DNA of 39,987 bases from an uncultured Candidatus Melainabacteria bacterium (GTDB lineage Bacteria > Cyanobacteriota > Vampirovibrionia > Gastranaerophilales > Gastranaerophilaceae): NCBI GenBank assembly GCA_947570135.1, contig CANOTP010000011.1, forward strand, positions 1 to 39,987, read 5' to 3'. The notes under the pieces were generated by a model, which saw only the letters and a list, made by a program, of their open reading frames with translations, was not told the DNA's origin and searched no databases. Below are positions 2,336 through 27,736 of this stretch, piece after piece (positions within the stretch are counted from its first letter, which is position 1; each line of letters opens with the position of its first letter). Position numbers and translations under genes: made by a program.

Positions 2336-3522
2336 TGGCAAAACGAAGAAGTAATGGCGAAGGATGTATATATAAAGATTCTCGTAGCGGGAAATGGAAA
2401 GGGAAATTTGAAATAGGCTACGATGCAAAAGGTAACAGAAAATTCAAATCTTGTACAGGAAATTCAGAGCGGGAAGTAAGATTATTACTTAAAGATTTAA
2501 TGGAAAAGCACCACGCAGGAATTGATATCAGTCCAAAAAGTTTGAAAGTTGGAGAATTTTTTGATAAATGGTTTTATGGTTCTGTTATTGATAGCTTGCG
2601 AACTTCAACAAGCCAAAGTTATGAAATGATAATAAGACGACACATAAAGCCGCATATCGGAGATATTTCACTTGCAAATTTAACAGGTGAGGACATAAGA
2701 AAATTTTATAAATTTCTTTATGATGACGGCAGATTAAATGGTAGAGGCGGACTTGCTCCAAAAACTGTAGAAAATATACATTTAGTTATTAGTAGTGGAA
2801 TAAATTTTGCACTTAAAGAGGGAATCATTATTAGAAATCCTTTGCTTACTGTTAAATTAAGACGTGAAGGCAAAAAAGAAGTTGAAGTATTTACCAAGGA
2901 AGAACAAGATTTAATTACTGCTGAATGTCCAAACCATTACTACGGTATGGCAATCAAGTTTGATTTTTATACGGGCTTAAGAGCTGGGGAGTTGTTAGGC
3001 TTAACTTGGGATTGCGTAAACTTCGAGAAAAATACCGTTAGAATCAACAAACAAGTGCAACGTAATAAAAATTTTGACAAACGAGCAGATAATAAGACCA
3101 TATTAGGATTTGTATATAATACTAAAACAGAAACTTCTACACGCACAATCAAAGTTATAAAGTCTTTAATGAAAGAGCTTAAAGAGTATAAAACCAAACA
3201 AACTGTATTAAGAAAGCGAATCGGAAAAGATTATTATAATTATAATTTAGTCTTCCCAAGAGAGGACGGCTATTTTACAGACGCAGGAACATTTTTAGAT
3301 ATATTCACTAGAATGCAAAAGAAATTAGAGATTTCACCTCGCAATGTTCATGCAATACGCCACACATTTGCGACGCGAGCATTGGAACGTGGGGTGCAAC
3401 CAATAGTTGTGTCAAGAATCCTCGGACACGCAAGTATAAAAATCACCCACGACATCTACGGGCATGTAATCCAAGACTTTGCCGAGCAGGAGCTAGAGAA
3501 AATGGAAGATATCTATGTTTAA
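2335..3522 (+). CDS. int: tyrosine recombinase / integrase
   Basis: A 395-residue phage-type integrase. An N-terminal arm-binding domain (residues 1-60, with basic MAKRRSNGEG) is followed by a SAM-like core-binding domain (about 70-170) and a catalytic domain (about 185-390). The catalytic set is complete: Arg216 in TGLRAGE, Lys264 in the beta-hairpin, His339 and Arg342 in HAIRH, His365 in ILGHASI, and nucleophile Tyr375 in THDIYGH. It catalyses site-specific integration and excision. The 3' half of an initiator tRNA at the element's right end is the likely target. Unusually, it sits 3.4 kb from that site, with the NTPase cargo between them. Translation is coupled to the serine recombinase upstream. 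Confidence 0.95.
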   Translation: MAKRRSNGEGCIYKDSRSGKWKGKFEIGYDAKGNRKFKSCTGNSEREVRLLLKDLMEKHHAGIDISPKSLKVGEFFDKWFYGSVIDSLRTSTSQSYEMIIRRHIKPHIGDISLANLTGEDIRKFYKFLYDDGRLNGRGGLAPKTVENIHLVISSGINFALKEGIIIRNPLLTVKLRREGKKEVEVFTKEEQDLITAECPNHYYGMAIKFDFYTGLRAGELLGLTWDCVNFEKNTVRINKQVQRNKNFDKRADNKTILGFVYNTKTETSTRTIKVIKSLMKELKEYKTKQTVLRKRIGKDYYNYNLVFPREDGYFTDAGTFLDIFTRMQKKLEISPRNVHAIRHTFATRALERGVQPIVVSRILGHASIKITHDIYGHVIQDFAEQELEKMEDIYV

Positions 3523-3615
3523 TAATTAGCCACTTGTCTATACTTTCTTCAATATACTTAACATAACTTATAATAGTTATTCTTTTGCGATATTATAAAT
3601 AGAATAGGAGGGAGT

Positions 3616-6600
3616 ATGTCAATACATTTAAAAGACTCAAATAAAACTAGTGAGCAAGACAGTTTTAAAATTCATTCAAAGATTGCAAAAACTATTTGTG
3701 AGATTATCGAAAATTCTGATTTAGAAGAATGCTCTTTTAATATGGGATTATTTGGAAACTGGGGAAGTGGTAAAAGTTTTATAATAAAAAAGATTGCAAA
3801 AAAATTACCAAAAGAAAAATACTTATTTTTAAATGTTGATGTATGGAAATTTATAGGCACCCCTCTCTTAAGAAGTATTTTATTTGATATTAATAAACAA
3901 CTAAAAGAAAAAGCTAATGATATTTTTCCTAATGGTTATACGGAAAATAACAGAGAATTAGAAAGTATATTATATTATGAAGAAAGTCTAAAGAATGAAA
4001 TACCAATTAGTTTAGAAGAATGTGATAAAAAATTAAAGAAACTTTTTATTGCAAATAAAACATACTGGTTAACAATCTTTGGGGTTATAGTTGTATTGTT
4101 TTTGATTAGTGTTTTTGTTCCAAAAACTTTATATGATAGTTGGGGCTATTGGAGTAACGTTATAAATGGTATATTGGTAACAAATTCTAATTTGCTTGGC
4201 TTTTGTATTGGTATTTTATGTATATTAATTTATCCTTTAAAAAAAATCGGAGAAGTTTTATATAATGGTTTAGAAATTCAAAATTATAAAACTTTGCCTA
4301 ATTTTTCTCCAGAACAATTTGAAAGAATTTTTTCAAATATAACCGATACAATAAGTTATAACAAGAAGAAACTTGTTATTGTTTTTGATAACCTAGATAG
4401 ATGTGAGCCTAAATATGCGTATGAAACACTATCAACTATTAAGACATTTATGGATATAAAAAATTGTTTTTACATTGTACCTTGTGATGACAACGCTGTA
4501 AAACAATATATTGCAAATAATTATTCAATTATCAAAAATACGGAAGAAACAGAACAAAAAAACACTTTTGCAAATACATTAGGGATTGAATTTTTTGATA
4601 AACTTTTTGATACTTATATTAGAATACCAATCTTGGAAGAAATTGACAGAGATAAATTTATTGAAGAACAATTACAACAGATAACAATATTTGAAGAATT
4701 AAAAGATAATATAAGAGAAATAAGGCAAATATTATATTATGGATATAGAGGTTCTACACCTAGACAAATTAAAAAATTTATAAATGATTTTAGTACATAT
4801 TATTTATTAGCAAAAAATATTGATCCAAACAAACAGTTTTTATTAAAAAATATACCATTTTTTGCAATAATGTTAGTTATAAAGCAGAAGTGGAATTCTA
4901 TTGAAAATGTATTAATTCAAGTTCCACAGTTAATTCAAAATCCAGAAATTAAAGATACTTCGTTTAACGATTTTATTAATAAAATAAATCCACTAATTCC
5001 ACAACCATTGCCATCATTGTTACCTTTTATTTATTTAAAAGAAACCACTAATGAGCAATTTATTAATGAAAAATTAAAAAATGGAGAATTTATAGAAGAA
5101 TTTAATGAAAATATTTATAAACGGATAAGAACAGAAATTGATAACATACTTATAAGTAAAGATGAGTTATATATATTGCAAGCCGCTAATTCATCTTTTG
5201 CAACACTTATAAACTCAGAAAATATAGACAATAGTTTAAAAATAGATTTTACTCGTACTATTGGTAAAGTTGTAAGTTGTATTGATGATGTTAAGAACTT
5301 TGCAAGTTTTCTATTAAAAAATCAAAAAAATATTGATGAATTTTATAGAAGTATTAATAATATGTATAATAATGAAAAAAATATTATCAAATCAGTTCTT
5401 GTAGATTTTTTAGCTGAAAAACAAGAAACCTACGTTGATAATCAACAAAAAATATTTAATTTAATAATTCAAGATAAAACGAATTTATTTAAATGCCAAG
5501 ATATAAAAATTATTTTTTCTAGTATAACAGGTTTAACTGAAATAACTAAAAGCATACAAAACTATGTTAGATTAGCTTTTAAAAATAATAAACAAGACTT
5601 TATCCCTTCAAATTTTATAGAATTAATTATTAATTCTATTTCTCAAAATGGAATTCCTGAGCAAGCGGAAGTTTGTTTAAGAAATTTCAATGTAAATAAA
5701 TTATCTAGTACAAATAGAACATTACTAGCAACAAAAGCAAAAGATATAATAACTTACCTTAATTCTCGTCTACAATATAGTGGTGGAAATGAGATTACAA
5801 TTGCAATATCAAATATTATTCTTTGTTTGCAGTTATTATATAAAGAAGACTTTGCCGAAAACTTTTCAGGAATAATGATACAATTATATTCTATCTTAGA
5901 AAGATTAAGAACAACTACTGATACAACTAGAAGGCAATATGCTTATGATTTATTGATTGAAATGTTTTGGTTTGTTGATGATGACAACAAATTTAGTAGT
6001 GTTCTAAATCAATATACAACAAATAACAAAGATTTATTTATTGAGAAATTAAAAACAAAAAACTTTTCATACATAGAAGAATTATTCAAATATGAACTTT
6101 CACAAAAAGTTTTATTATCAGATGTAGATATTTCCAATTGTATTTATGCTACTTTTGCAAAAGAAATTTCTAAAAATTATATGACCTTATTAAGAAAAGA
6201 TGGCGATATTAAAAACTTAGAGCAATTATTGACCTGTATTAAAGAAAAAGAAATATCTTTAGATAAAACAAAATTTAAGAATGATATAATTCAAAAATAT
6301 ATTGATAATGACGATATAAAACTTATACTAGATGTTTTTAAACTCCTTAATAATAATGGATACGAAGTAACTAAAAAACAACGCTTGAGTATTAAGAATA
6401 AATTAATTGATTTTTATAAGGAAGAACCTCTAGGCAGAATTACACAACTTGGAGAGATGAAAAATTTATTATCAGAAGATGAATTCAATACAAATATATT
6501 AACTCCAATATTTAATCATATCAAATCAGAGTTAAATTCTACACATGAAGTTACCAGCTATTCAAATATAATTCAGGTTACTAACGAATCTTTTATAAAT

Positions 6601-6840
6601 TTACAATTGGAAATAGTAAATGATATTATTAGTAATTTGTCAGAAGACAACCAAGAAGCTGCAGAGTATGAGTTATGCTTAGGATTAATTCAGTTAGCAA
6701 AAAGTGCTGGACAAGACATTAGTAATTATAAAGAAAAATTGGAGGAACGTAAAACAGGATTTAACGAAAAATTGATAAATATATACAATTCTTTATACCC
6801 TCAAAATGAAAACAAGAATGAAGTTATAGATAAAACTTAA
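3616..6840 (+). CDS. KAP-family P-loop NTPase, membrane-anchored, possible phage exclusion protein
   Basis: A 1074-residue protein. GNWGSGKS at residues 47-54 is the Walker A motif, and LVIVFDNLDRCEP near residue 255 is the Walker B with the NLDR signature typical of KAP NTPases. Two hydrophobic segments, around residues 150-168 and 193-208, are inserted between them, as in KAP proteins that hang on the inner face of the membrane. The following REIRQILY...STPRQIKKFIND segment is also typical. The C-terminal 600 residues look like helical repeats of unknown role. The family includes PifA, the F-plasmid phage T7 exclusion protein. As the only cargo between integrase and attachment site, a defence role is a reasonable inference but unproven. 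AGGAGGGAG precedes the ATG. Base composition is lower in GC than any neighbour. Confidence 0.85.
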   Translation: MSIHLKDSNKTSEQDSFKIHSKIAKTICEIIENSDLEECSFNMGLFGNWGSGKSFIIKKIAKKLPKEKYLFLNVDVWKFIGTPLLRSILFDINKQLKEKANDIFPNGYTENNRELESILYYEESLKNEIPISLEECDKKLKKLFIANKTYWLTIFGVIVVLFLISVFVPKTLYDSWGYWSNVINGILVTNSNLLGFCIGILCILIYPLKKIGEVLYNGLEIQNYKTLPNFSPEQFERIFSNITDTISYNKKKLVIVFDNLDRCEPKYAYETLSTIKTFMDIKNCFYIVPCDDNAVKQYIANNYSIIKNTEETEQKNTFANTLGIEFFDKLFDTYIRIPILEEIDRDKFIEEQLQQITIFEELKDNIREIRQILYYGYRGSTPRQIKKFINDFSTYYLLAKNIDPNKQFLLKNIPFFAIMLVIKQKWNSIENVLIQVPQLIQNPEIKDTSFNDFINKINPLIPQPLPSLLPFIYLKETTNEQFINEKLKNGEFIEEFNENIYKRIRTEIDNILISKDELYILQAANSSFATLINSENIDNSLKIDFTRTIGKVVSCIDDVKNFASFLLKNQKNIDEFYRSINNMYNNEKNIIKSVLVDFLAEKQETYVDNQQKIFNLIIQDKTNLFKCQDIKIIFSSITGLTEITKSIQNYVRLAFKNNKQDFIPSNFIELIINSISQNGIPEQAEVCLRNFNVNKLSSTNRTLLATKAKDIITYLNSRLQYSGGNEITIAISNIILCLQLLYKEDFAENFSGIMIQLYSILERLRTTTDTTRRQYAYDLLIEMFWFVDDDNKFSSVLNQYTTNNKDLFIEKLKTKNFSYIEELFKYELSQKVLLSDVDISNCIYATFAKEISKNYMTLLRKDGDIKNLEQLLTCIKEKEISLDKTKFKNDIIQKYIDNDDIKLILDVFKLLNNNGYEVTKKQRLSIKNKLIDFYKEEPLGRITQLGEMKNLLSEDEFNTNILTPIFNHIKSELNSTHEVTSYSNIIQVTNESFINLQLEIVNDIISNLSEDNQEAAEYELCLGLIQLAKSAGQDISNYKEKLEERKTGFNEKLINIYNSLYPQNENKNEVIDKT

Positions 6841-7059: not shown

Positions 7060-9144
7060 TTAGAAACTTAAATTGATTTGATATTTATTCAAGAATGTTT
7101 TCATTGATTTTTCGTCAAATTTTAAGACTGTATGGATTGTGCCGTTAAAGTTACGAGTTCCGTCTTCGACCATTCCTAAACTTTTATAAAATTTTATATT
7201 TTCCGGTTTGTCTGTTGCAAACTTCATCGTGTGATTTCCTGTTTCAATGCAAAAACTTACCATTCTGGCGATAACTGCTTTTCCACAGCCGCGGATTTCA
7301 GCATCTGAACCTTGGTTCCAAGGTGCGGTATTAAGGCTTCTTCCCCAGATAATTCCGTCTTTTTGGATTTCAACATTTGCGATTGCCTGTAATCTTCCAT
7401 CATCTGTTCTCAGTGTGAAGTAATGCGCATCAGGATATAATGTACAGGATTTGTACGGAGGGAGGATATCTGCTTGCGGATAAGGCTTTTTCAGCCATTG
7501 ATGCTTGATTTCAGCGGCTAATTTATTATATTCAGATTTGTTGCTAAATGGCGGAATGTCTTTAATATCACCAAATATCGGTTTTGCTTTTTGGACATTT
7601 TGAAGGTAAACGCTTTGACCGTCTTTTAAGATATTCCAAGGAAGTTCGACGTTTTCTTTCGGGATGAATCTGTTGAATTTTTCATCTTTTGTTTTAAATC
7701 TTTCTGACAGGATTTCTCTTTGTTTTTGTAAGTGTTCAATATATGCTTTAAACGCTCTGTCTGCTTTAGGTTCTACGGAATAAGTTCCGTCAGACATCAT
7801 TTTAATTTCTTCCTGAACTTTTGCGGGAAGTTTGGATTTTGGAATATCAAAACGGATTCCGGCTTGTTCAATTCGTTTAAAGCATTTATTTATAACATCT
7901 TCATCTGCAGACATAACTATTCGTACGTAGCCTTCGCCGTTTGTGCCGAAAACTGTTCCGGGGGTAAATGCAACGTGAGCTTTATGTAACACGTATTTGA
8001 AAAATTCATCTGATGTAAATTCAGGCGGCACTTTTGTCCATAAGTAATATGTGCCGTCAGTCGGTTTTGTTTCACTGCCTAATTTGTTTAGCCATTTTAC
8101 GGCAGTGTTTTTACGTCCGCGGTATATTTTGTTGACTTTGTTTATGTAACCTTCTTCATCTTTCAGTGCTTCTATTGCTGCGTGTTGAACTGGAACATAA
8201 ACACTTCCGCCTGATAAATATTTAGCTGCAAGCAGGTTATCTATATTTTCTTTGTCACTGACTGTAAAGGCTACTCTTAAACCGGGCATACTTTGGGCTT
8301 TACTCATTGTATGGATTTGGAATGCTACGTCTTTTGCGCCTTCAACCTGCATAATTCCGACAGGTTTTACTCCGCTGTGGGTAACTTCACTGTTATCCAT
8401 ATCATGAATTATTAGAACCTCGTTTTCTTTTGCCCATTTTACGGCTTGTTCGAAAACTTTTTTCGGTGCAAAAGAACCTGTAGGGTTGTGCGGGTAATTT
8501 AGTATAAGGATTTTAGCATCTTTTGGCATTTTGCTAAAGTCGGGAAGATAACCGTTTTCGGGATTCAGGGCAAACTGAACTTTATTTAAATCATGTCGGG
8601 TAATTAAATCATCATAAAGAGAATACCCCGGGTTTGGAACAAGAACTTTATCTCCGTGGTTAGCGTATGCGGTAAATATGTGGTCTATTGCATCAGACGA
8701 GCCTGATGTAGCCATAACTTCGGTTCTGGGGTTGATTTTTACTCCGAATCTTTTATCCATCCAAGCTGCAACCGTATGAAAAAGCGCTCCTTCCCCTTTC
8801 GGGCTGTTATATCGGTGTGACCATAAGTCGTTTACTTTACTTTTTAGAATTTGTTTTGATTTTTCGGGAGGTGTTAAATCAGGGTTTCCCATTGATAAAT
8901 CTACAACTTCTCTGTCGCCGTGGAAGTTTCGAGCCTTTCCGATTTCACTTATATAACCCGAAATTAAGTAATCGGATTTTTCGAGACGGGCAGCTTTTGG
9001 AATAATCCCTGCAAAATAAATGCTTGCAATGTTTGACGGAATTTTTGCTGAAGGATAACAGGTTAAAGTATTTTGTTTTTTTGGTTTAACTTGGTTGTTG
9101 TTTGTATTTAATTTTAATTGTGGAGTTAATGCATAAACTTTCAT
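7060..9144 (-). CDS. tagged aminotransferase class I/II fused to GNAT acetyltransferase
   Basis: A 694-residue two-domain protein. Residues about 55-435 are a fold-type I PLP aminotransferase. SGSSDAIDHIF (cofactor phosphate-binding region), LNYPHNPTG, HDMDNSE and the PLP lysine in TMSKAQSMPGLR (near residue 279) are all present, most like aspartate/LL-diaminopimelate aminotransferases. Residues about 560-690 resemble a GNAT N-acetyltransferase: IANVEIQKDGIIWGRSL, then a degenerate acetyl-CoA loop RGCGKAVIARMV and IKFYKSLGMVEDG. An amino acid transaminated and then N-acylated by one polypeptide is a plausible idea, but the substrate is unknown. The first 50 residues are a low-complexity polar leader ending in IYFAG, the tag shared by many proteins here. 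A TAGCAA promoter-like element lies just upstream. Confidence 0.85.
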   Translation of the reverse strand: MKVYALTPQLKLNTNNNQVKPKKQNTLTCYPSAKIPSNIASIYFAGIIPKAARLEKSDYLISGYISEIGKARNFHGDREVVDLSMGNPDLTPPEKSKQILKSKVNDLWSHRYNSPKGEGALFHTVAAWMDKRFGVKINPRTEVMATSGSSDAIDHIFTAYANHGDKVLVPNPGYSLYDDLITRHDLNKVQFALNPENGYLPDFSKMPKDAKILILNYPHNPTGSFAPKKVFEQAVKWAKENEVLIIHDMDNSEVTHSGVKPVGIMQVEGAKDVAFQIHTMSKAQSMPGLRVAFTVSDKENIDNLLAAKYLSGGSVYVPVQHAAIEALKDEEGYINKVNKIYRGRKNTAVKWLNKLGSETKPTDGTYYLWTKVPPEFTSDEFFKYVLHKAHVAFTPGTVFGTNGEGYVRIVMSADEDVINKCFKRIEQAGIRFDIPKSKLPAKVQEEIKMMSDGTYSVEPKADRAFKAYIEHLQKQREILSERFKTKDEKFNRFIPKENVELPWNILKDGQSVYLQNVQKAKPIFGDIKDIPPFSNKSEYNKLAAEIKHQWLKKPYPQADILPPYKSCTLYPDAHYFTLRTDDGRLQAIANVEIQKDGIIWGRSLNTAPWNQGSDAEIRGCGKAVIARMVSFCIETGNHTMKFATDKPENIKFYKSLGMVEDGTRNFNGTIHTVLKFDEKSMKTFLNKYQINLSF

Positions 9145-9603: not shown

Positions 9604-10512
9604 ATGAACTGCATCAATAATAACAAATATACATATACTCCGTCGTTTCAAGCTTATTATAAAAGTCCTTTTGGAAAAAAGATTGAACACTCACTTGCGA
9701 CAAGTCATTTTTCCGAAGATATTGTTGCTGATTTTGAAAAGATTTTTAATCAAAAAAGAAACCGTAAATGTAAAATGGGTGCAGGTAAATATGGTACGGT
9801 TTACAGGATAGATGATTATTTTGTATTTAAGAAATATCATAATTATGACCCTAAATTTATGCCTGTAAAAGTTAATACAAAGACTATGTTTGACGGGTTA
9901 AGAACATATTGCGGTAAGGTTTTGGTAAGAATCGGCAATATTGAAATTATACGTAATGCAACACGTGACAGACGCAATTTTCTTCAAATGGCAAAAACCG
10001 TAGTCGATGGACCTGCTGCTTATGCTCGTTCGTTAAGAGAGTTTTGCACTTTGCCGCAAAGAGCTTTTGATAATCTTGCACAGGATTTTCAACGGTTAAA
10101 CGGGATATATGAAGGTCATCGCTTTTGCAGATTTGACACAGGCAATCCGAATAACTTTATAAAAGTCGGTAAATCAATTAGGATTGTTGATGACGTTTAT
10201 GATATCTGTCCGTGTCCGAATTCTAACGATATTTACGCGTTTTTGAGTGTGTTTATTCAAAAAGGCGGAAGCATGAAACTTAAAAAAGAAATGTTTAAAA
10301 AATGTATTATGGCTTGCGAAAAATACCAGTTGCCAATGGATGATGATATTAAATATTTTTCAAAAGAAGTGAATGAGATTTTCGGATATGCGGGAGTGCG
10401 GGTTTCATTTGAAGAGTTTGACGAAGTTATTAAAACCCTTCGCCAAACTTGTCCTAATAATAAGTTAAGACTTACAAAAGTCAGAGAGTATCTTGAAACC
10501 TTGTGGGATTAA
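9604..10512 (+). CDS. tagged protein-kinase-like protein
   Basis: A 302-residue protein with features of the protein kinase/aminoglycoside phosphotransferase fold. A glycine-rich loop, MGAGKYGTVYRI (residues 58-69), is followed by VFKKY (about 74-78), whose Lys could contact ATP. Near residue 175 is a catalytic-loop-like RFDTGNPNNFIKVG, then IRIVDDVYD in place of the DFG region. The usual His of the HRD/HGD loop is replaced and the fold assignment is by eye, so activity is uncertain. Residues 1-24 form the polar N-terminal tag with core SFQA. No clear Shine-Dalgarno site is seen. The stop overlaps the stop of the convergent gene by four bases (10509-10512). Confidence 0.7.
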   Translation: MNCINNNKYTYTPSFQAYYKSPFGKKIEHSLATSHFSEDIVADFEKIFNQKRNRKCKMGAGKYGTVYRIDDYFVFKKYHNYDPKFMPVKVNTKTMFDGLRTYCGKVLVRIGNIEIIRNATRDRRNFLQMAKTVVDGPAAYARSLREFCTLPQRAFDNLAQDFQRLNGIYEGHRFCRFDTGNPNNFIKVGKSIRIVDDVYDICPCPNSNDIYAFLSVFIQKGGSMKLKKEMFKKCIMACEKYQLPMDDDIKYFSKEVNEIFGYAGVRVSFEEFDEVIKTLRQTCPNNKLRLTKVREYLETLWD

Positions 10513-11099
10513 TCCTGACTGTAGTAAATTTTTTCTGTTAGGATTTTTAAATCATCTTTGTTGTTTTGCAGTTTATCAAGACGAGTGTAATATACATCAA
10601 GCTTATCGGCTTTCATTGACAGAAAATATTGTTTCAAGTCATCAGATAAGTGTTCGTTTTTTGTGAAATTATTCAGTAATCTCAGGTAATCATTAGTATT
10701 GTATTTCTCATACGGAATCGGTTTTGAGTATATCGGCAGGTAGTATGGTGAATTGTATGTGTACTGCCAAAGTTTTTCCTGTCTTTGTTTATTAAGACTG
10801 TCGATTGTTCCGACAAGCCCGACAAAACCTTCGGGATTGTTGTAATATTTTGAGGCTGAAAGTTCTTTAAAATCAGGATTGTTTTTTATATGGTTGTATG
10901 TTTGTTCGCAATTTATGTTTGAACCGTATTTAGCTATCTGTAGAAGTTTTCCGCGTTCATACAGAACTTTAATCTGATTTTCTTTAGACAAAGCAAATTC
11001 TTCATCTGTCAAATCAGGATAATATTGAGTATGGATTTGTTTTAAATCGGTTTGAATGTTTCTGTATAGCGGTTGAAATCTTGGTTGAATTTGTAACAT
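10509..11099 (-). CDS. tagged hypothetical protein, last gene of ankyrin operon
   Basis: Function not recognised. A 196-residue soluble, mostly helical protein rich in Tyr, Asn, Lys and Leu. It begins MLQIQPRFQPLYRN, a short form of the Phe-centred N-terminal tag with a leader of only seven residues. No signal peptide, membrane segment or catalytic motif is visible. AAAGGA lies six bases upstream of the ATG. It starts 11 bases after the metalloprotease gene and is therefore probably the fourth gene of the leftward operon beginning at 14949. Confidence 0.7.
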   Translation of the reverse strand: MLQIQPRFQPLYRNIQTDLKQIHTQYYPDLTDEEFALSKENQIKVLYERGKLLQIAKYGSNINCEQTYNHIKNNPDFKELSASKYYNNPEGFVGLVGTIDSLNKQRQEKLWQYTYNSPYYLPIYSKPIPYEKYNTNDYLRLLNNFTKNEHLSDDLKQYFLSMKADKLDVYYTRLDKLQNNKDDLKILTEKIYYSQD

Positions 11100-11110
11100 A
11101 ATAATCCTTT

Positions 11111-12028
11111 CTAAATTAATCCTTGTCCGTCACCGACAAGTCCTTCCCAGGTTTCATAAAGCACTTGGCGAAGTTCGGGACTGAGGTTTTTTATCGGGAA
11201 CGGGTTGCGTTCCATTTGAAGTGTCATAAAATCCATATTACTTATTACTGCATTTGTAAACTCTTCTGCAAAAAGTTCAGGTAATAAAGTAGAGCCGTAA
11301 CCGCTTGATTGTTTCATTATCTCTCTTACTTCAGGTGTAATATAAGGGCTTCCGTTAGTCGGCATATTTAATTTTTTCATTAAATTTTCTGTCGCGGGAT
11401 TAAATGCGAATCTCGGGTCAGGTGTCGGGCTTCCGAACTTTGAAAAAAGTTTGTGATAATGAACATTATGACCAAATTCGTGGATTGTTGTATGCAAAAA
11501 ATGATTGGAGGTATGGAATTTATTTTTTGCTTTGTGTTCTGCAAGTGATGTGTCAAGAAGGTTTGCCCAGTCCTGATTAAGGTTATATACAACGGTTCCT
11601 ATCGGTTTTCCGACATCAGGTCCGTAATAACATGCCGCAAGTGTTCTATTCGGAAACGGTTCCATATCAATTTTTGCAGGTAACGGCATTCCAAGCTGCC
11701 GCATTATCTCCATTCCGTAAAAAACGCAATAAGCAATAACCTGATTATCTTTCAAGGTTCGTCCTTTGTTTATTGCACACGGGACATTAAGACTGTAACA
11801 GTAGCCTTCGACTTCACGTGGGTTAATCTCATCAATCATGTGGCGATGTTTAACCAGTGATTTTTCGTAAATATAGTCTTGAATCATACTTATTCCAAAA
11901 GGGATATTTGACATTCCTTTTGAATAAATACTTTTTTCAACCTGTCTGTCTTGAGCCTGAGGTGTTGTTACAGCCTTAGGTTTTTGCGCTGGTCTTGTTT
12001 GATATGGTGTTATTGCAGATATTCGCAT
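11111..12028 (-). CDS. tagged zinc metalloprotease (HExxH...E gluzincin type)
   Basis: A 305-residue protein with TTIHEFGHNVHYH around residues 180-192, the HExxH zinc site with its catalytic glutamate. About 65 residues later LLPELFAEEF offers the third zinc-ligand Glu expected of gluzincins. The family is not resolved; resemblance is to small single-domain peptidases rather than M48 membrane proteases, since no transmembrane helix is seen. Residues 1-50 are a Gln/Ala/Pro-rich leader ending in NIPFG, the tag shared by its neighbours; no classical signal peptide is present. AAGGA precedes the ATG. It sits 12 bases from the Asp-repeat gene and 11 from the next gene, within the tagged operon, and might process partner proteins. 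Confidence 0.8.
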   Translation of the reverse strand: MRISAITPYQTRPAQKPKAVTTPQAQDRQVEKSIYSKGMSNIPFGISMIQDYIYEKSLVKHRHMIDEINPREVEGYCYSLNVPCAINKGRTLKDNQVIAYCVFYGMEIMRQLGMPLPAKIDMEPFPNRTLAACYYGPDVGKPIGTVVYNLNQDWANLLDTSLAEHKAKNKFHTSNHFLHTTIHEFGHNVHYHKLFSKFGSPTPDPRFAFNPATENLMKKLNMPTNGSPYITPEVREIMKQSSGYGSTLLPELFAEEFTNAVISNMDFMTLQMERNPFPIKNLSPELRQVLYETWEGLVGDGQGLI

Positions 12029-12040
12029 AATTTTTAATCC

Positions 12041-12724
12041 TTAAAATATATCTATATCAGGGATATCGATTTCAGGTGTGATATCAATGTCAGGGTCGAT
12101 ATCAATATCAGGATCTACGTCGACGTCAGTATCTACGTCAACATCAATATCGGGATCTACGTCAATTTCTGGATCTACTTCAGGGTCAATATCGATATCC
12201 GTGTCGATATCGGGATCGTTTATAATATCTGTATCTTCAACATCTGAAGTTATTTCTTCATGTGTATCTGCTGCTTCATCTGACATATCAACAGGTTTGT
12301 CCTCGGTTTGTTCTTCAACGGCTTCGTCTTTGGTTGTTGATTTAGAAGTTTTACCTTTTATTTTTTCTGCTGCAGCTTTTGTTCCTTCAATTGCAGAACC
12401 TGTAGTAACCCCTGCAACTGCACCGTCAGCGGCGGCTGAGCCTGAGCTGTTTCCGTAAGTGCCTGGTCTTGGTGCTCCGTTTAGGTTTTCGTTATATCCG
12501 TAAGTTCCGGGTTTTGGCGCACCGTTCATTTGGTTGTTGTTTTCTGCTGCTGCGTGATAGTGTTCAATAATTACTGTTCCGCCGTTGTTGCCGCTTGGTG
12601 TGAATCTGTCACCGCCAAGAGGGTTTGTTGTGCCTTTTCCTGCTGCTTGAGCTGCTGCGTTTCTGATTACATCGTTGATTCCGCGAAATGTTGTTTGTCT
12701 TGTTGTGAAAAATGAAACTTTCAT
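12041..12724 (-). CDS. tagged low-complexity protein with C-terminal Asp repeat
   Basis: Function not recognised. A 227-residue protein in three parts. First comes a short tag, MKVSFFTTRQTTFRG. Next is a Gly/Asn/Ala-rich middle containing NGAPKPGTYG and NGAPRPGTYG as a tandem repeat, then an acidic/Lys linker. The last 60 residues are built from alternating Asp and Ile/Val with periodic Pro-Asp or Pro-Glu. The Asp repeat could bind calcium or other cations, or act as a disordered acidic tail. AGGAGG gives a strong ribosome site. It lies 35 bases after the ankyrin gene and 12 before the metalloprotease gene. Confidence 0.7.
   Translation of the reverse strand: MKVSFFTTRQTTFRGINDVIRNAAAQAAGKGTTNPLGGDRFTPSGNNGGTVIIEHYHAAAENNNQMNGAPKPGTYGYNENLNGAPRPGTYGNSSGSAAADGAVAGVTTGSAIEGTKAAAEKIKGKTSKSTTKDEAVEEQTEDKPVDMSDEAADTHEEITSDVEDTDIINDPDIDTDIDIDPEVDPEIDVDPDIDVDVDTDVDVDPDIDIDPDIDITPEIDIPDIDIF
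12047..12225 (-). repeat. coding Asp-(Ile/Val) tandem repeat
   Basis: The DNA repeats short units around GATATCGATATT-like and GATCCTGAAGTT-like blocks (minus strand), encoding D-I/V-D-I/V-D-P units. The many near-identical hexamers, including GATATC, would favour slippage and copy-number change. On the plus strand they create a spurious Ser-rich open frame. Confidence 0.7.
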
Positions 12725-12759: not shown

Positions 12760-14949
12760 TTATGATGCCCCGCCTGTTGTAACTGCCGTAGTTACTTTTT
12801 TAACGGTTCTTTTTGTTTGTTTTGCTTTTTGGTATGCAAGCATTTTGTCGTATTCGATTTTGTATTTATCCATTGTTGATTTTAAACTGTTTTTAATTTT
12901 TGTATTATTTTGTGTTAATTTAGCATTATTTGTTTTGAGTTTTTCAAGAATTTTTTCGTATTTCGGGTTTTTGCCTTCAATGTAAATTACGTATTCAATT
13001 CCTTCTGCGAGGTATTTGTTTAATTCCGTATAATCTTGAACCTGTTTATTTATGCCGTTTTCGTAGTAGTTTTGACAGATACTGTTATATAGTGCGGTTA
13101 ACTTTTCGGTTTCCTCTTTCAAATTGTCGAAAAATATACCCGTCACCATTCCGAAACCTTGTGCTACGATTCCCACAACAGGTGTTTTAGAACCTTTCGG
13201 GTTTCGGTTGTATAGGTTTGAGATTTCCATACTAAACTTTTCATTATACTGTTTTCTGATAACAGAAAGGGCGGTCATTGATTTGGCGATTTTCTTTTCT
13301 TCTTCTTTAAGCTGTTTGTATGCAGTTGTAATACCGATTTCTGTTGTCGGAGCGGATTGAATAATTGTATTGATTTTTTCAGATGTCAGAGAAAGTTCAT
13401 AGGTTAATTCTTCACGAATATCTTTTGTTCCGTAGAATCTGTAATCGTTGCTGTCATAATTTCCCGTAAATACAACTTGGGAGACTTTTTTGCTGTCAGG
13501 TTTTAACCATTTATGATATTTTTTGTAAGTCTCATTACAATCCTCAATGGTTTTACCGTTTGCTGCCTGATTCGGGTTCATTTGAAATATTTTTACAATA
13601 TCTTCTCTGCCGATAAGAGCAAAGTGATGTGACGGGTAGTAACCGTCTTTATTGATGTAATTAAGGTTTGCACCTTGGTTTGCCAGTTGTTCAATTTCCT
13701 GCTTATTATTTACGTAAAATACGGAGGTTTTTCCTGATGCGTTAGGTTTATCAGGATTTGCTCCGTAAGATAACAATTTGTCAAAAAGTTTTGTGTCTCC
13801 TGATTTTAAAGCGCTAATCAGGTAGTTTCTGTAATTAGGATTGGAACCTGCGTCTAAAAGCATGTTTCTTAATTTCGGGTTATTTAATGCGTAATCAAAC
13901 GGGATTTTTTTATCTTTATCAGGGATATTCGGATTAGCTTTGTATTTTAATAAAAGTTCAACAGCGTTTATGTTGTTTGTTTTCACACAGTTGTGTAAAA
14001 GAGTTGAGCCTTGCGGGGTTATAACATCAGGGTTTGCTTTGTTTGCAAGCAGTAATTCCATTGTTTTTGTACTTTTTGCGTAGTATAGCGGCGGAAGATT
14101 GTATTTATCATACATATTAGGGTTTGCACCAAGTTTTAGTAATAATTTTGAAATGTTATATTTGTTTTCCGAAATATTCTGATGAAGTACGGTTTGTTTG
14201 TTGTTATCCGTAAGATTTATGTCAGCATTGTTTTTAGAAAGCCATTGGATTGTTTGCGGGGTTGTTGTGTAGAATATCGGTGATTTACCGTATTTATCTT
14301 TGTGGTTTAGGTTTGCTTTATATTTTTTCAGAATTTCTGCGGCGTCTAAGTCATCATTTGAGATTGCCGTATACATAAGTGTTTGTGCGTTTTTATCGGG
14401 ATAATCAGGTTTTGTTCCGCATTTCAAGAAAGTTTCAAGACTGTTTTTGTATTTTATTGAAAGGTTAAACGGTGTTTGATTAAATTCGTTTTCAAAATAA
14501 GGATTTGCACCGTGATTAAGTAAAAGTTTTACAAGTTTAGGGTCTGTGACGACTTTATGTAAAGGAGTGTTTTTCTGATTATCGTAAGTGTTTACGTTAA
14601 CATCATACAGTAAAAACGATTCAATTAAGGGATGGTTTAATTTTGAACAGGCAATCGCGAAAGGTGTTCGTCCGCGGAAGTTTTTCAAATTCGGGTCAAG
14701 TTTTTTATATAGTAAAAATTTTGAAATCTCTAATTGATTATTTTGAGTTGATGAGTGGAGCAGTGATTCGCGCCGATTGTTTATAATATATAAATCGGGA
14801 AGTTTTTTAACCTCATCAATTTGTCCGTTTTGAATAAGTTTATCAATATCTTCAAACAAAAGATAACGTGAGGAGAAAGCAATATTATTCACACGGTTAA
14901 ACCTGTTATACCCCCTGTCAAATGTAGTTTTTATAGGTGTAATAAGCAT
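12760..14949 (-). CDS. tagged ankyrin-repeat protein
   Basis: A 729-residue protein. After a tag (MLITPIK..., core NNIAFSS near residue 25), residues about 35-460 hold roughly a dozen ankyrin repeats. Typical units are GRTPFAIACSK, NTPLHKVV, GKSPIFYTTTPQ, QTVLHQNISENKYNISKLLL and GSTLLHNCVKTNNINAVELLL, each near 33 residues. The C-terminal 260 residues are helical and coiled-coil-prone, with a Gly-containing hydrophobic stretch (TPVVGIVAQGFGMVTGIFF) that may touch a membrane. Ankyrin repeats bind other proteins, so a scaffold, inhibitor or host-interaction role is possible. It opens the leftward operon; AAGGA lies eleven bases before the ATG and a TAGCAA/TATTAT promoter upstream. Confidence 0.88.
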   Translation of the reverse strand: MLITPIKTTFDRGYNRFNRVNNIAFSSRYLLFEDIDKLIQNGQIDEVKKLPDLYIINNRRESLLHSSTQNNQLEISKFLLYKKLDPNLKNFRGRTPFAIACSKLNHPLIESFLLYDVNVNTYDNQKNTPLHKVVTDPKLVKLLLNHGANPYFENEFNQTPFNLSIKYKNSLETFLKCGTKPDYPDKNAQTLMYTAISNDDLDAAEILKKYKANLNHKDKYGKSPIFYTTTPQTIQWLSKNNADINLTDNNKQTVLHQNISENKYNISKLLLKLGANPNMYDKYNLPPLYYAKSTKTMELLLANKANPDVITPQGSTLLHNCVKTNNINAVELLLKYKANPNIPDKDKKIPFDYALNNPKLRNMLLDAGSNPNYRNYLISALKSGDTKLFDKLLSYGANPDKPNASGKTSVFYVNNKQEIEQLANQGANLNYINKDGYYPSHHFALIGREDIVKIFQMNPNQAANGKTIEDCNETYKKYHKWLKPDSKKVSQVVFTGNYDSNDYRFYGTKDIREELTYELSLTSEKINTIIQSAPTTEIGITTAYKQLKEEEKKIAKSMTALSVIRKQYNEKFSMEISNLYNRNPKGSKTPVVGIVAQGFGMVTGIFFDNLKEETEKLTALYNSICQNYYENGINKQVQDYTELNKYLAEGIEYVIYIEGKNPKYEKILEKLKTNNAKLTQNNTKIKNSLKSTMDKYKIEYDKMLAYQKAKQTKRTVKKVTTAVTTGGAS

Positions 14950-14976
14950 GAAAACGATATCCTTATGTTATTTTTT

Positions 14977-15004
14977 ATAATACACGTAAATAAGAATTTT
15001 GCTA
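14977..15004 (-). promoter_or_regulatory. TAGCAA/TATTAT promoter of the ankyrin operon
   Basis: On the minus strand TAGCAA (14999-15004) and TATTAT (14977-14982) are 16 bases apart, 28 bases before the start codon. Twelve bases upstream of ATAGCAAAA is TGTTACAT; the same TGTTACAT-N12-ATAGCAAAA arrangement precedes the gene starting at 31851. Confidence 0.5.
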
Positions 15005-15051
15005 TTTAAGTTAAAAAATGTAACAAATATTTAATCGTTTTTTATTTCATG

Positions 15052-15080
15052 TAGCAAAAATGTTTTTTCACTGATTTAAT
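15052..15080 (+). promoter_or_regulatory. TAGCAA promoter of the AAA+ operon
   Basis: TAGCAA (15052-15057), within TGTAGCAAAAA, is followed after 17 bases by TTTAAT (15075-15080). The AAA+ start codon is 25 bases further on. It is divergent from the ankyrin-operon promoter 48 bases away, so the two operons can be co-controlled from one 155-base gap. Confidence 0.45.
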
Positions 15081-15104
15081 AAGATTTAACACAAGGGGGA
15101 AAAT

Positions 15105-16481
15105 ATGTTTATACATCCTATTACGGCGAGATTTACGCCAAATGTTAGCAAACACGGGTCTTTAAAACAAAACACTTACACACAAAATCCTGTATCATTT
15201 ACGAGTGATTATTTTGATTATGATGAAATACTAAAAAAGAAACTTGACGCGCGCAGCGGTTGGAAAAAATTATTCGGGGCAGGTAAAAAGAAGGCAAAAC
15301 AAGAAACTCAGCTTGAATTGGTAGGTTTTACAAGGGCGCAAAACAGAATTGCCGATGAGAAAGAAAAACAGATTGAGATGCAGAAAAGACTTCTTGAACA
15401 AAAAGAAGAAACCTTAAAACAAGAAAGAGAAGCAAAAAGGTTAGTTGAACGACAGCTTGAAATGGAAAAGAAAGCTAACGCGCAGGATAAGATAATTCTT
15501 GAACTTCAAGCAAAATTAGAAGCAGCTCAAAAAAGAGAAGCTGCCGCTCAAACTGATTTTGATATGCAGGCACAAAGAGTCGCAAGTATACAACGCGATC
15601 AATCAATTTTAACAAAACGAGAAAAAGGTAAAGGCTGGGATAAAGTTGCAGGACATGAAGAGTTAAAACGTCAGTTGGAAGAAGCTTTTATTAATAAAAT
15701 TGCACTTGAAAAAAACGGATGTGATGTTAGTCTACCAAACGGAATTTTATTATACGGACAGCACGGAACTGGTAAAACCCGTTTTGCACAAGCATTTGCC
15801 GAACAAGCAGGATGCAGGTTTGTAGAAATAAATACAATGCAATCTGATGAAGATGTTATTGACGATTTGCATAACGAATTAAAGAAATCCAAGAAAGCTT
15901 ATTTCTCACCTGAAACCCCTAAAAAACGTACAATAATCCTTCTTGACGATTTTGATTCCATTGCAAAATTAAGTAAGGACGAAGAAAGTATGCTTCAAAA
16001 CAAAGGTTTTGATTTTACTGATACAAATGTCGGACAGCTTTCGGAAATCTTATCGGATTGTGCGGATAAATATAAGGCAACGATATTTATGACCACAAAC
16101 CACCCGAGAAAAGTCAGCTCGGAACTTTTGAAAGAAGAATTAACACCTTATCAAATATTTTTAGGACCTCCGGGACCGTTGGATGCGTCTAAAATCTTTA
16201 AATATCATTTGAACGGATTTACCGATGAACAAATTGATTATATGAGATTGGGTAACGAAGTCGGAAAAGCTATTGAAGATGAATTAGCGTACAGCGCTCA
16301 GGGTATTGTTGATGTTGTTGATTATGCAAAAGAAAATAAACAAGGCGCTCAAGTCGCAGAACCGGATTTATTAAACGCAATTGAAAATGTCGAACCCGAT
16401 ATTTCAAAAGAAACATTTAACGCTTTTCTTGACGATATGATTGAGTTAAGAGCAGGGCTTGAAGGAAAAGGAGACGAATAA
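15105..16481 (+). CDS. tagged AAA+ ATPase with coiled coil
   Basis: A 458-residue protein. Residues 1-35 form the tag (core NPVSFTS). Residues about 75-170 are a long Glu/Lys/Gln coiled coil. The AAA+ domain spans about 175-400: GWDKVAGHEELKRQLEEAF resembles the FtsH/CDC48-type entry motif, GQHGTGKT is Walker A (about 216-223), and IILLDDFDSI is Walker B (about 276-285). IFMTTNHPRKV looks like sensor 1. The acidic C-terminal helices may form the AAA+ lid. Coiled coil plus AAA+ suggests a remodelling ATPase or proteasome-activator-like ring, but no protease domain is fused. AGGGGGA precedes the ATG. Its stop overlaps the next start, and a degenerate AAA-like paralogue ends the operon. Confidence 0.87.
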   Translation: MFIHPITARFTPNVSKHGSLKQNTYTQNPVSFTSDYFDYDEILKKKLDARSGWKKLFGAGKKKAKQETQLELVGFTRAQNRIADEKEKQIEMQKRLLEQKEETLKQEREAKRLVERQLEMEKKANAQDKIILELQAKLEAAQKREAAAQTDFDMQAQRVASIQRDQSILTKREKGKGWDKVAGHEELKRQLEEAFINKIALEKNGCDVSLPNGILLYGQHGTGKTRFAQAFAEQAGCRFVEINTMQSDEDVIDDLHNELKKSKKAYFSPETPKKRTIILLDDFDSIAKLSKDEESMLQNKGFDFTDTNVGQLSEILSDCADKYKATIFMTTNHPRKVSSELLKEELTPYQIFLGPPGPLDASKIFKYHLNGFTDEQIDYMRLGNEVGKAIEDELAYSAQGIVDVVDYAKENKQGAQVAEPDLLNAIENVEPDISKETFNAFLDDMIELRAGLEGKGDE

Positions 16482-17911
16482 TGAGAGTAACTGCTAATTA
16501 CGATATTTATTCAAGAAATATTCAGTATAAGTATAATAATCCTTCAAATCCTTTTTTTACATCAGGCATGGATGAAGAAAAACCAAATAAAATGTCTAAT
16601 AAAAAGAAATGGACTATTGCATCTTTGGGTACTGCGGTGCTCGGAGCTTTGGGGATTAAAACCATGTCAAAGAAACCTCCGAAAGTTCCTGCGACTGAAA
16701 TAAAGCCCGTTGTTGAAACTGCGGTTGATGTAGTCGGAAACTTAATAAGAAAATTAAAACCTAAAAACGAAGAACTTGCACGTGAGTTTTTCCCTGTACT
16801 TGAACATAATTCACAAACCCTTAAACTGAAACAGGAGGATTACAATACAATCCTGTCAGGGATTCATAAACATAACAGAAAATATATGAAGGATGAAGGT
16901 TTCGGGGTTATCACTTCTCAAATGGGTAAAATGGAAGACTTGATTGCCTCTCCTGCTGATGATATTTTAACTCTTGTCAGGATACTTACAAAAGAAAATC
17001 AGGATATATTCACCCGTATTGTCGGGGATAGAGAAACTTTCAGGCTTGTGGATATTTCTGATATCGCAACATATTTAAAACATATTACACCTGAAAATAA
17101 GGATTATGTTTTCAATGAACTTGTTCCGCTTTTAGAACGCTATGCGAAAGAATTAAAAATTAAAACGGCAGAAAAGCATGCAAAACTTTTAAGTCAAATT
17201 ACACCTGAAACCCAAGATGTAATCCCGACGGTTGCAGAGTCAAAAGTGCTTGACAGTCAGCGAATCAGTAAATATCAGGTTCTTTTGGGTGTGAATAAAG
17301 ACAACAAAGATTGCGTGGCGCCGCTTATTGATAACGTCGAAACCCTCGGACTTAATCAAAACAATACGGTAAGTCTTTTAAATTCTTTGCACAATGAACA
17401 GGCGGGAGTTATCGGTGTTGTCGGTAAAAATATCGACAGGGTGAACGATATGGGGTTAAATATTGAGAAATTGTTCACGGTTTTGAAAGACGATAAGGGT
17501 GCTCAAATCTTTGATACGGTTATTGCTAATCCTCAAGGCTACAAGATTAACGAATTGATTGATTTGAAAAACTATGTCAGAAATTTAGACCCGAAAAATC
17601 TTGAATTTGTAGATAAAACATTGTTGCCAAAGCTTCTTGAGCATTCGGAGGTTTTAGGCATCCGTTATGCTGAGGAAATGGCAGAGGTTATGGGTAAACT
17701 TACTCCAAAAACCGCAGGAAGTATTGATACTGTAGCGGGTTATGCCCAAAAACTTGGAGACGGGGTTTCTTATCCTGCGCTTTTACAGGCAGTGACGGAA
17801 GAAAATCAGGGAAATCTGCCGCGGCTTATGGAAAATATAAAAAATACAGAAGTTTGGGATAATTTTATGGTAGGTCCTGAAGATTTTGCAAAACTGCTGG
17901 CAGGAGGGTAA
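16481..17911 (+). CDS. tagged membrane-anchored helical-repeat protein
   Basis: Function not recognised. A 476-residue protein. Residues 1-30 are an Asn/Tyr-rich tag ending in PFFTSG. One probable membrane helix follows at about 46-64 (WTIASLGTAVLGALGIKTM). The rest is a soluble helical array of units near 40-45 residues with recurring phrases such as LTKENQDI, ITPENKDYVF, ITPETQDV, LDPKNLEFV and LTPKTAGSI, suggesting a solenoid. It lies between an AAA+ ATPase and an ATPase-like protein, with a one-base overlap upstream and a one-base gap downstream. It may be the membrane tether or adaptor of an ATPase complex (inference). The segment after the membrane helix could be on either side. Confidence 0.75.
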   Translation: MRVTANYDIYSRNIQYKYNNPSNPFFTSGMDEEKPNKMSNKKKWTIASLGTAVLGALGIKTMSKKPPKVPATEIKPVVETAVDVVGNLIRKLKPKNEELAREFFPVLEHNSQTLKLKQEDYNTILSGIHKHNRKYMKDEGFGVITSQMGKMEDLIASPADDILTLVRILTKENQDIFTRIVGDRETFRLVDISDIATYLKHITPENKDYVFNELVPLLERYAKELKIKTAEKHAKLLSQITPETQDVIPTVAESKVLDSQRISKYQVLLGVNKDNKDCVAPLIDNVETLGLNQNNTVSLLNSLHNEQAGVIGVVGKNIDRVNDMGLNIEKLFTVLKDDKGAQIFDTVIANPQGYKINELIDLKNYVRNLDPKNLEFVDKTLLPKLLEHSEVLGIRYAEEMAEVMGKLTPKTAGSIDTVAGYAQKLGDGVSYPALLQAVTEENQGNLPRLMENIKNTEVWDNFMVGPEDFAKLLAGG

Positions 17912-17912
17912 A

Positions 17913-19100
17913 ATGAGGATTTCTCCTATAAGAAATTATAATTTTACATCGCAGACAAGTAACAGGAAAAATATTGCGTTTAAAAGCAAGTATTCCGATT
18001 TGGTGGAAGAAATTGCACAAAAATGTCAATATGTTAAAGACCCGTCAGATTTGATTTATGAGGAACTTAACAAACATTATTTTTCTTGGGAAATAAGCGG
18101 ATTAATGACTTGGGATGTTCAACGCCGTATTGAAGAATTGCGGTATGAACGCGAAATGCGGGAAGCTCGATTACGCAATATGGACACTGTTCTTAACGCA
18201 AAAGACAGAGAAATTAAAACCGAAAAAACAACTATCAGTCAGTTATCTCATGAAATAACCGAAACTCAGCGTAAAAATGCGAGAGAAAAGATTAAAATGA
18301 GCCGAATAGTTGCATCATTTGACAGAGTTGCTGAAGTAAATAAGCAATTAGAAGGAAAGTATGTTGATTTGTTTAAGTTTGAGGGTGATAAGAAGTTCCC
18401 TAACGCGATTATGGTTTCCGGCTTAAAAAGTGATGGTGAAGTTGATGATGTTTTAGATTTTTTGACGAAAAGCGGATGTAAGATTTTAAAAATCGATTTT
18501 GCTCAGATTCCTTTAGAAAGTGTTGCAAAAGAAATCAATGCTTTAGCGTCAAAAATCAAAAAAAGCGGTGAACATTCAATTCTTTATATAGAAAACTTTG
18601 ACAAATACACTGTGCCGACAGAAGAAAATATGGATTTTATATCTAAATTCAAAGGGTTTTTATGCAGTTGTTCAAAAAGATGTGATACAACAATACTGGT
18701 TTTTGAAAATAATCCTAAACGTTTAGATGAAAACATTATCGGCGGACACAGGTTTGAAAAGAAAATAGATGTTTCAAATATAAAAGAAGATGTTCCGTCG
18801 GTGTTTGTTCCGAAATTTGACGGTTATACATTTGTTTACGACACGGATGAGGATTCACAAGTGGACTTGTATTTGGGGGATGCGGGGCAAAATCCTGCAT
18901 TGCTCTGGGCTGATACCACATCTTACGATAAGATAAAGGTTGTCCTTGACAGGCTTGATGAAGTTAAGGCGCAGGATAGGTTCAAGTATACGAAATATTT
19001 GCAGGTTCCGTACTCATCAGGTGCGTTTGATGCGGGATTTACGGTATGTCCGTTTAGAAGAACTTATGAAGGAAATGTCATTCTTGAATGTGAAATTTAA
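17913..19100 (+). CDS. tagged degenerate AAA-like protein (no Walker A)
   Basis: A 395-residue protein with a layout parallel to the AAA+ ATPase two genes upstream: a tag (MRISPIRNYNF..., core NIAFKS), a coiled coil at about 70-135, then an ATPase-like domain. At about residues 160-177, FPNAIMVSGLKSDGEVDDV sits where Walker A should be but has no GKT/GKS. At about 220-230 SILYIENFDKY takes the place of Walker B, with Glu-Asn instead of Asp-Asp/Glu. TTILVFENNPKRLDENI resembles the sensor-1 segment. The protein is therefore probably a non-hydrolysing partner. The ATG at 17913 is chosen because GGAGGG lies 5-10 bases upstream and the tag begins there. The last four bases overlap the hydE stop. 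Confidence 0.75.
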   Translation: MRISPIRNYNFTSQTSNRKNIAFKSKYSDLVEEIAQKCQYVKDPSDLIYEELNKHYFSWEISGLMTWDVQRRIEELRYEREMREARLRNMDTVLNAKDREIKTEKTTISQLSHEITETQRKNAREKIKMSRIVASFDRVAEVNKQLEGKYVDLFKFEGDKKFPNAIMVSGLKSDGEVDDVLDFLTKSGCKILKIDFAQIPLESVAKEINALASKIKKSGEHSILYIENFDKYTVPTEENMDFISKFKGFLCSCSKRCDTTILVFENNPKRLDENIIGGHRFEKKIDVSNIKEDVPSVFVPKFDGYTFVYDTDEDSQVDLYLGDAGQNPALLWADTTSYDKIKVVLDRLDEVKAQDRFKYTKYLQVPYSSGAFDAGFTVCPFRRTYEGNVILECEI

Positions 19101-27176: not shown

Positions 27177-27211
27177 AAAAAATGTAGATAAAAGTTAGGA
27201 TGGTTTTTAAT

Positions 27212-27736
27212 ATGATTAAACTTCAAAATTTACCTCAATTGGTAGCTCTTAATTATACACCGCAAGCCGTATCACAAAGAAATGTTGCAATAAACAGTAA
27301 TCTTGAACGCTCGCCGCAATGTGACTGTGTAAGCTTTACGGGTAAAAAAGAAGAACCTGAGGAACTTTTACCTATTGTTGAGGTAAGTGATGATGATATT
27401 GTTGTAATTCCTGATGAAGATGTTGAAGTTGTTGATGACAGCGCATACATTTATGATTTAGATCTGGCAGAAGAAAATAAACGTCAGCTAGAAGCTGAGG
27501 AAGAAGAAGAACGCCGCAGACGCGATGAAGACGAGCAATTTAATAATGATATTTTTATTTATGGCGTATTTGTTCCTGAGATGATTGTTGAAGATGAAAT
27601 CATTGCAAGAGATGCGGTTTTGAATGATATGACTGATGATACTGTAAATCCTGCAGAAGATGATTCTTACTCTCAAAATGACGATTTCTCATCATTTAAT
27701 GATAGTTTTAACGACTTTGACGATTACGGATTTTAG
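27212..27736 (+). CDS. tagged acidic hypothetical protein
   Basis: Function not recognised. A 174-residue, highly acidic protein. A polar leader of about 42 residues ends in CVSFTGKK, the tag core. The body is Glu/Asp-rich, with a coiled-coil-prone charged stretch (EENKRQLEAEEEEERRRRDE) near residues 85-105 and a disordered Asp/Ser/Phe tail (SSFNDSFNDFDDYGF). No enzymatic motif is present. The ATG at 27212 is preferred over that at 27200 because AGGA (27197-27200) then has normal spacing and the short hydrophilic leader starts with MIKLQN. Pgk follows 79 bases later under a possible separate promoter. Confidence 0.65.
   Translation: MIKLQNLPQLVALNYTPQAVSQRNVAINSNLERSPQCDCVSFTGKKEEPEELLPIVEVSDDDIVVIPDEDVEVVDDSAYIYDLDLAEENKRQLEAEEEEERRRRDEDEQFNNDIFIYGVFVPEMIVEDEIIARDAVLNDMTDDTVNPAEDDSYSQNDDFSSFNDSFNDFDDYGF

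Follow-up and report, generated by a model that had tools for sequence, protein, structure and literature searches.

The DNA analyzed here (the window) is a stretch of 39,987 nucleotides, contig CANOTP010000011.1 of assembly GCA_947570135.1, from an uncultured Candidatus Melainabacteria bacterium of the order Gastranaerophilales; it is contig C11 of a 1.9 Mb genome that is 99.9% complete. Three consecutive genes on its forward strand, P1, P2 and P3, encode an AAA ATPase subunit, an alpha-solenoid and a pseudo-ATPase partner with a predicted AAA fold (Table 1). The stop codon of P1 and the start codon of P2 overlap by one base (TAATG), a single base separates P2 from P3, and a GGAG-type site lies upstream of each of the three starts, so that their translation is probably coupled; an alternative TTG start at 17886, which would give a longer form of P3, is not needed. 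A first-pass annotation, made from the sequence alone, had read a fixed stoichiometry into this spacing; the spacing is as it described, and the stoichiometry was deduced from it rather than observed.

Two AAA proteins of one operon

The AAA domain of P1 matches PF00004 at 7.7e-16 (59.2 bits, against a gathering cut-off of 21.2), and a profile search of the Protein Data Bank (PDB) returned a VCP-like ATPase as the best match (1.3e-22), with p97 also among the best relatives. The protein falls below the NCBIfam cut-offs for FtsH_fam (36.3 bits vs 600), CDC48 (49.5 vs 802.65) and IteA (28.3 vs 510), and it ends right after the AAA domain, with no zinc protease domain. In addition to an intact Walker A it has sensor 1 (TTN) and a Walker B that reads ILLDDF, with Asp-Asp instead of Asp-Glu. 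Pore loop 1 of the aromatic-hydrophobic-Gly type is missing; the segment MFVGVG of FtsH corresponds to QSDEDVIDDL in P1, in a region devoid of glycine.

P3 shares with P1 the succession of N-terminal tag, coiled coil and AAA-like domain that the first-pass annotation had recognized, and hhalign matches it to the P1 family at 97.3% (2.1e-11, 135 columns). While a sequence search of the PDB with P3 gave coiled-coil or chance matches only, the AAA domain of its AlphaFold2 model (mean pLDDT 82.5, from six aligned sequences) superimposes on the D1 domain of p97 with a VIA Z of 15.7 and an rmsd of 3.0 over 153 aligned residues, and Foldseek matched the model to p97 D1 and FtsH (best 2.4e-6). P3, whose folding as AAA the annotation had singled out for checking, is AAA by modelled fold and by profile comparison. 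Its Walker A position reads GLKSDGEVDD and its Walker B position IENF, in agreement with the earlier description of a lost GKT and a Glu-Asn; orthologues vary at the latter between IEN, IDN, IKN and IED.

In the model of P3, the usual place of the AAA helical lid is taken by a domain of about 100 residues, mixed in structure and rich in strands. This C-terminal domain was found in 31 of the 286 genomes of the order and in 11 of 50 genera. One of the proteins that carry it, at L136:3434-6721, is a tagged protein of 1095 residues that joins it to starch-synthase and PIG-L domains, and similar proteins are present in L137, L139 and L140; next to it at L136 lie a GH77 gene and one that resembles sugar-nucleotide dehydratases, and the neighbours at the other three loci are of similar size.

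Reciprocal losses and gene linkage

Alignment with the FtsH of the same genome places the arginine-finger column in LLRPGRFDRQI of FtsH, LLKEELTPYQI of P1 and IIGGHRFEKKI of P3. The finger residues of p97, Arg359 and Phe360, act on the nucleotide of the neighbouring subunit (PMC10914628). Judged by this alignment, P1 keeps Walker A and sensor 1 and is without the finger, whereas P3 is without Walker A and has the finger. The finger is absent from P1 in all eight homologues aligned; His-Arg-Phe fills the position in six of six P3 proteins, and its His and Arg stay invariant when the alignment is broadened to 11 rows, where identities fall as low as 17%. The P3 segment HRFEKKIDV aligns with GRFDREVDI of p97. 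The reciprocal loss of P-loop and finger is the new part of this analysis and, like the C-terminal domain of P3, was not in the first-pass annotation; because of it, the pairing of the two proteins is stronger than that annotation could know.

The wider family follows the same pattern. Among 69 proteins, a count that omits the Walker-A-less L060_1 and L061_4, whose AAA part is poorly conserved and which have no Arg at the column, the arginine is kept in 27 of 29 Walker-A-less members and in 13 of 40 Walker-A-bearing ones. At 50% identity (30 clusters) the figures are 11 of 12 and 5 of 18, with a Fisher value of 0.0008 that serves as a guide only, as this is not a phylogenetic test and the clusters are not independent evolutionary events. 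Where a locus is uncut by a contig end and encodes a Walker-A-less protein with the arginine, it in most cases also encodes a Walker-A-bearing protein without it.

P1, P2 and P3 are contiguous in five genomes (the window, L084, L085, L087 and L088; in L085 the P1 frame is interrupted by an assembly run of undetermined bases), and contig ends break the series in two more, P1-P2 reaching a contig end in G043 and P1 and P3 lying at the ends of two contigs in G020. The three genes are thus conserved together in relatives, a point on which the first-pass annotation had laid weight. Of 98 relatives searched, 6 have P2 and 15 have P3, a figure whose more distant matches belong to other types within the family; P3 orthologues of the window type occur in a handful of the 46 genomes of the genus. 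The family was met only in the order Gastranaerophilales, patchily, and a P1 search of the class outside the order gave matches at FtsH level only. A locus of another genus (L126) carries a homologous trio of an AAA protein, a P2 homologue (hhalign 98.0%, 1.9e-13) and a pseudo-AAA protein, and at other loci the middle position is taken by a gene for a small membrane protein, or one of the AAA proteins carries a fused membrane segment. Orphan P1-like genes with neither P2 nor P3 adjoining are found in G006 and on contig 27 of G003. The G006 copy is also without tag and coiled coil, and both copies have lost the sensor-1 Asn (MTSSQP in G006, MTSSHP in G003), which fits a decay of P1 after loss of P3.

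The solenoid, the neighbouring genes and the tag

The helical units of P2 begin LTKEN, ITPEN or ITPETQ at a spacing near 34 residues, and here the LTPEN/ITPET repeats of the first-pass annotation hold; the membrane helix that it also assigned is probable, not certain, the hydrophobic segment of five orthologues scoring between 1.24 and 2.13 on the Kyte-Doolittle scale. A sequence search of the PDB with P2 yielded coiled-coil or chance matches only, and the best Foldseek match of its model was a designed protein (E 0.0058). A TALE-type solenoid was not adopted: the TM score to TALE is 0.2-0.25, the VIA alignment has Z 9.2 at an rmsd of 19, and helical repeats match readily.

Table 1. Features of the P1-P2-P3 locus, in window coordinates.
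Feature	Position	Strand	Remarks
P1, AAA ATPase subunit	15105..16481	+	458 aa; tag VSFTS near residue 30; coiled coil about 75-170; AAA domain about 178-445
P1 Walker A	15756..15779	+	GQHGTGKT
P1 Leu346, arginine-finger column	16140..16142	+	FtsH LLRPGRFDR vs P1 LLKEELTPY; finger absent
P2, alpha-solenoid	16481..17911	+	476 aa; tag FFTSG; probable membrane segment; helix pairs of roughly 34 residues
P2 hydrophobic Gly/Ala-rich segment	16613..16669	+	residues 45-63; probable membrane helix; Kyte-Doolittle 1.22
P2 solenoid	16715..17908	+	residues 79-476; AlphaFold2, pLDDT above 90 at most residues
P3, pseudo-ATPase partner	17913..19100	+	395 aa; tag IAFKS; long helix/coiled coil 63-149 (87 residues); AAA fold 133-290 (model); C-terminal domain 291-395
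P3 degenerate Walker A	18420..18443	+	GLKSDGEV
P3 His279-Arg280-Phe281, arginine-finger position	18747..18755	+	p97 Arg359-Phe360; invariant
P3 C-terminal domain	18783..19097	+	VDLYLG..G....LW; also in proteins without AAA
Intergenic region between divergent blocks	14950..15104	.	divergent arrangement conserved
Tagged ankyrin-repeat protein, conserved neighbour	12760..14949	-	729 aa; PF12796 3.1e-42; in complete loci
Tagged protein with Asp-rich repetitive tail, conserved neighbour	12041..12724	-	227 aa
HExxH protein, probable metallopeptidase, conserved neighbour	11111..12028	-	HEFGH, downstream Glu conserved; HEFAH in L087
Protein without family, neighbour in several loci	10509..11099	-	196 aa

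The ankyrin-repeat, Asp-rich and HExxH proteins are conserved divergently with the trio. A Pfam search with the HExxH protein gave nothing above cut-off, and searches of NCBIfam and PADLOC found no family for P2, P3, the HExxH protein or the 196-aa protein. Beyond these genes lies one for a tagged 302-aa protein (9604-10512) with GAGKYGTVYRI, which resembles the glycine-rich loop of protein kinases, and with no Pfam match. At 1748-6840 a serine resolvase, a phage-type integrase and a 1074-residue KAP-family NTPase are encoded consecutively, probably as a mobile element adjoining the island.

The tag follows the motif (I/V)SF(K/T)(G/S), which more than half of the AAA proteins in the family carry within their first 60 residues and which a few per cent of other proteins have as well. 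Its frequency is 7 to 12 per 1000 positions at N-termini against 0.5 beyond residue 80, and tagged N-termini are rich in Asn, Ser and Thr and poor in acidic residues (D+E 4.0%, against 13.2% inside proteins). A loose form of the pattern, with 26 matches where shuffles give 16.7 (maximum 25), is not clearly above expectation; the tighter motif exceeds shuffles in the family loci and, more weakly, in the 400-kb sample from which the genome counts are drawn. Besides P1, P2 and P3, enzymes bear the tag, GH77 and an aminotransferase among them. Tagged proteins of unrelated families are encoded in the window at 7060-9144 (the aminotransferase), 12041-12724, 27200-27736, 31237-31851 and 35899-37851 (a 4-alpha-glucanotransferase), and L180:4026-5887, from a different family of the order, encodes in tandem four small proteins (100-185 aa) whose starts carry tags like SPSFGA or LSFGA. 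Because it is found on the trio itself and on unrelated proteins elsewhere, the tag does not single out the divergent neighbours. A role of the operon in remodelling those neighbours, as suggested earlier, or in unfolding them is accordingly not supported; the absence of a canonical pore loop from P1 likewise makes a threading unfoldase doubtful.

A candidate membrane-associated AAA machine

From the predicted folds, the reciprocal losses and the gene linkage, which the analysis shows, we infer, as a rather probable reading, that the products of the operon assemble at a membrane into a hetero-oligomeric ring or arc of AAA subunits whose ATP sites are composite. The reciprocal losses of P-loop and finger predict an obligate hetero-oligomer: in P1 the P-loop, Walker B and sensor 1 would bind ATP, and a neighbouring P3 would supply Arg280 in trans as the arginine finger. 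As neither subunit alone would form a complete hydrolysis site, P1 and P3 would have to adjoin, probably in alternation, and their long coiled coils may aid assembly. P2 would anchor the ring at the membrane and offer its solenoid as a docking surface, with the domain at the lid position of P3 as a probable second surface for a client or partner. Turnover of ATP might then drive a clamp-like conformational switch on a bound client, which the missing canonical pore loop makes likelier than the threading of a chain. The active/inactive AAA pair with a membrane-linked partner that the first-pass annotation envisaged thus survives in its fold, its linkage and now its reciprocal loss, with the membrane link as a probable element.

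Several observations weigh against this reading. The finger was assigned by alignment, and the structure alignments have 5-6 rows. The structure predictions are of single chains. With Asp-Asp at Walker B, hydrolysis by P1 could be slow or nil, and the P2 of the window has a borderline membrane segment, though one that is clearer in most orthologues. In one subfamily (L127 and L129, also L060 and L061) neither partner has Arg at the column, and some clusters additionally include an AAA protein in which Walker A and the arginine are both present, possibly self-sufficient.

An unlikely alternative makes P1 a homo-oligomeric ATPase that suffices by itself, an unconventional residue acting in trans where the finger would be, and leaves P3, as a pseudo-AAA protein bound at the edge, a regulatory or adaptor role only. 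Orphan P1 copies do exist in G006 and G003, and the arginine in 13 of the 40 Walker-A-bearing relatives suggests that self-sufficient members may exist; however, those orphan copies show decay of sensor 1, and the finger arginine is found in no P1 homologue, whereas the His-Arg pair of P3 is invariant. We regard as improbable that the island serves in defence against phages or plasmids, with the AAA pair as sensor and the ankyrin and metallopeptidase proteins as executors. Such a role would account for the patchy distribution, for a gene content of AAA protein plus protease, for the weak match of P1 to IetA models (1.7e-7) and for the resolvase, integrase and KAP NTPase genes just upstream, but these mobile genes lie outside the conserved block, no curated defence model was reached (IteA included) and the tag ties the system to metabolic enzymes.

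The tag itself invites a further explanation, that all tagged proteins, the trio among them, are exported by a flagellar-type (type III) apparatus that has no flagellin, and that the machine works outside the cytoplasm. Genes for FliE, FliF, FliH and FlhA lie on contigs C1 (L142:5690-11578) and C7 (L141:9796-11274) of the same genome, in which no Flagellin_N match was found; a separate 492-aa protein consists of the FlhA cytoplasmic domain only, such a protein being present in nearly all genomes of the order that were tested, and FHIPEP proteins occur in all 39 other genomes of the order tested. A type IV route was set aside, VirB4 being absent from the genome. The composition of the tagged N-termini, and the sharing of one tag by soluble and membrane proteins, would suit export, and the tagged GH77 and starch-synthase-like proteins recall Chlamydia, where GlgA is secreted (PMC3722199). 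Against this, enzymes that need ATP, NAD and nucleotide sugars fit a cytoplasm. Type III signals, moreover, seldom share a conserved motif. Partial flagellar gene sets are also known in the order and are taken by some authors as non-motile remnants (PMC5877343). We therefore give little credence to type III export of the tagged proteins, and just as little to its fuller form, in which the SFKG-type tag would be an export signal kept throughout the Gastranaerophilales and the operon would make a two-subunit AAA machine that is exported and assembles on a membrane beyond the cytoplasm.

If the hetero-oligomer with composite sites is real, it is a natural split ATPase in which a trans-finger mechanism is testable with two separate proteins, and it shows how obligate hetero-rings can arise from one ancestor. 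The family contains proteins with both features, with the P-loop only and with the finger only, so that the order of losses could be reconstructed, and the trio offers a handle on an uncultured gut order with an unexplained tagged proteome.

Comparison with known systems places both proteins closest to p97/CDC48 D1 and FtsH, to which P1 is related through PF00004 and P3 through its modelled fold. They differ from these in the lost finger and missing canonical pore loop of P1, the lost P-loop of P3, the absence of a protease domain, the replacement of the P3 lid by a new domain and the use of two different subunits instead of one. The anti-phage proteins IetA/IteA share an AAA domain and weak profile similarity, but P1 is far below their family cut-off, and we know of no pseudo-ATPase partner of this kind in those systems. 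The Ycf2-FtsHi chloroplast motor is likewise a membrane-bound hetero-oligomeric AAA assembly with protease-inactive members, and 8xku_E is among the fold matches of P3; that motor is FtsH-derived, however, and P1 is not an FtsH by its score. Clamp loaders (RFC and relatives) are also built as hetero-oligomers of AAA subunits, the finger of each sensing the ATP on the next (PMC8121543). Their subunits and ours are related only as AAA proteins; the trio has no evident DNA or clamp partner and has a membrane-linked solenoid instead. In F1-ATPase, catalytic and non-catalytic subunits (beta and alpha) alternate and the non-catalytic one gives the arginine finger; this is a rotary machine of another P-loop ATPase branch, and what it shares with the proposed P1-P3 assembly is the logic of the arrangement.

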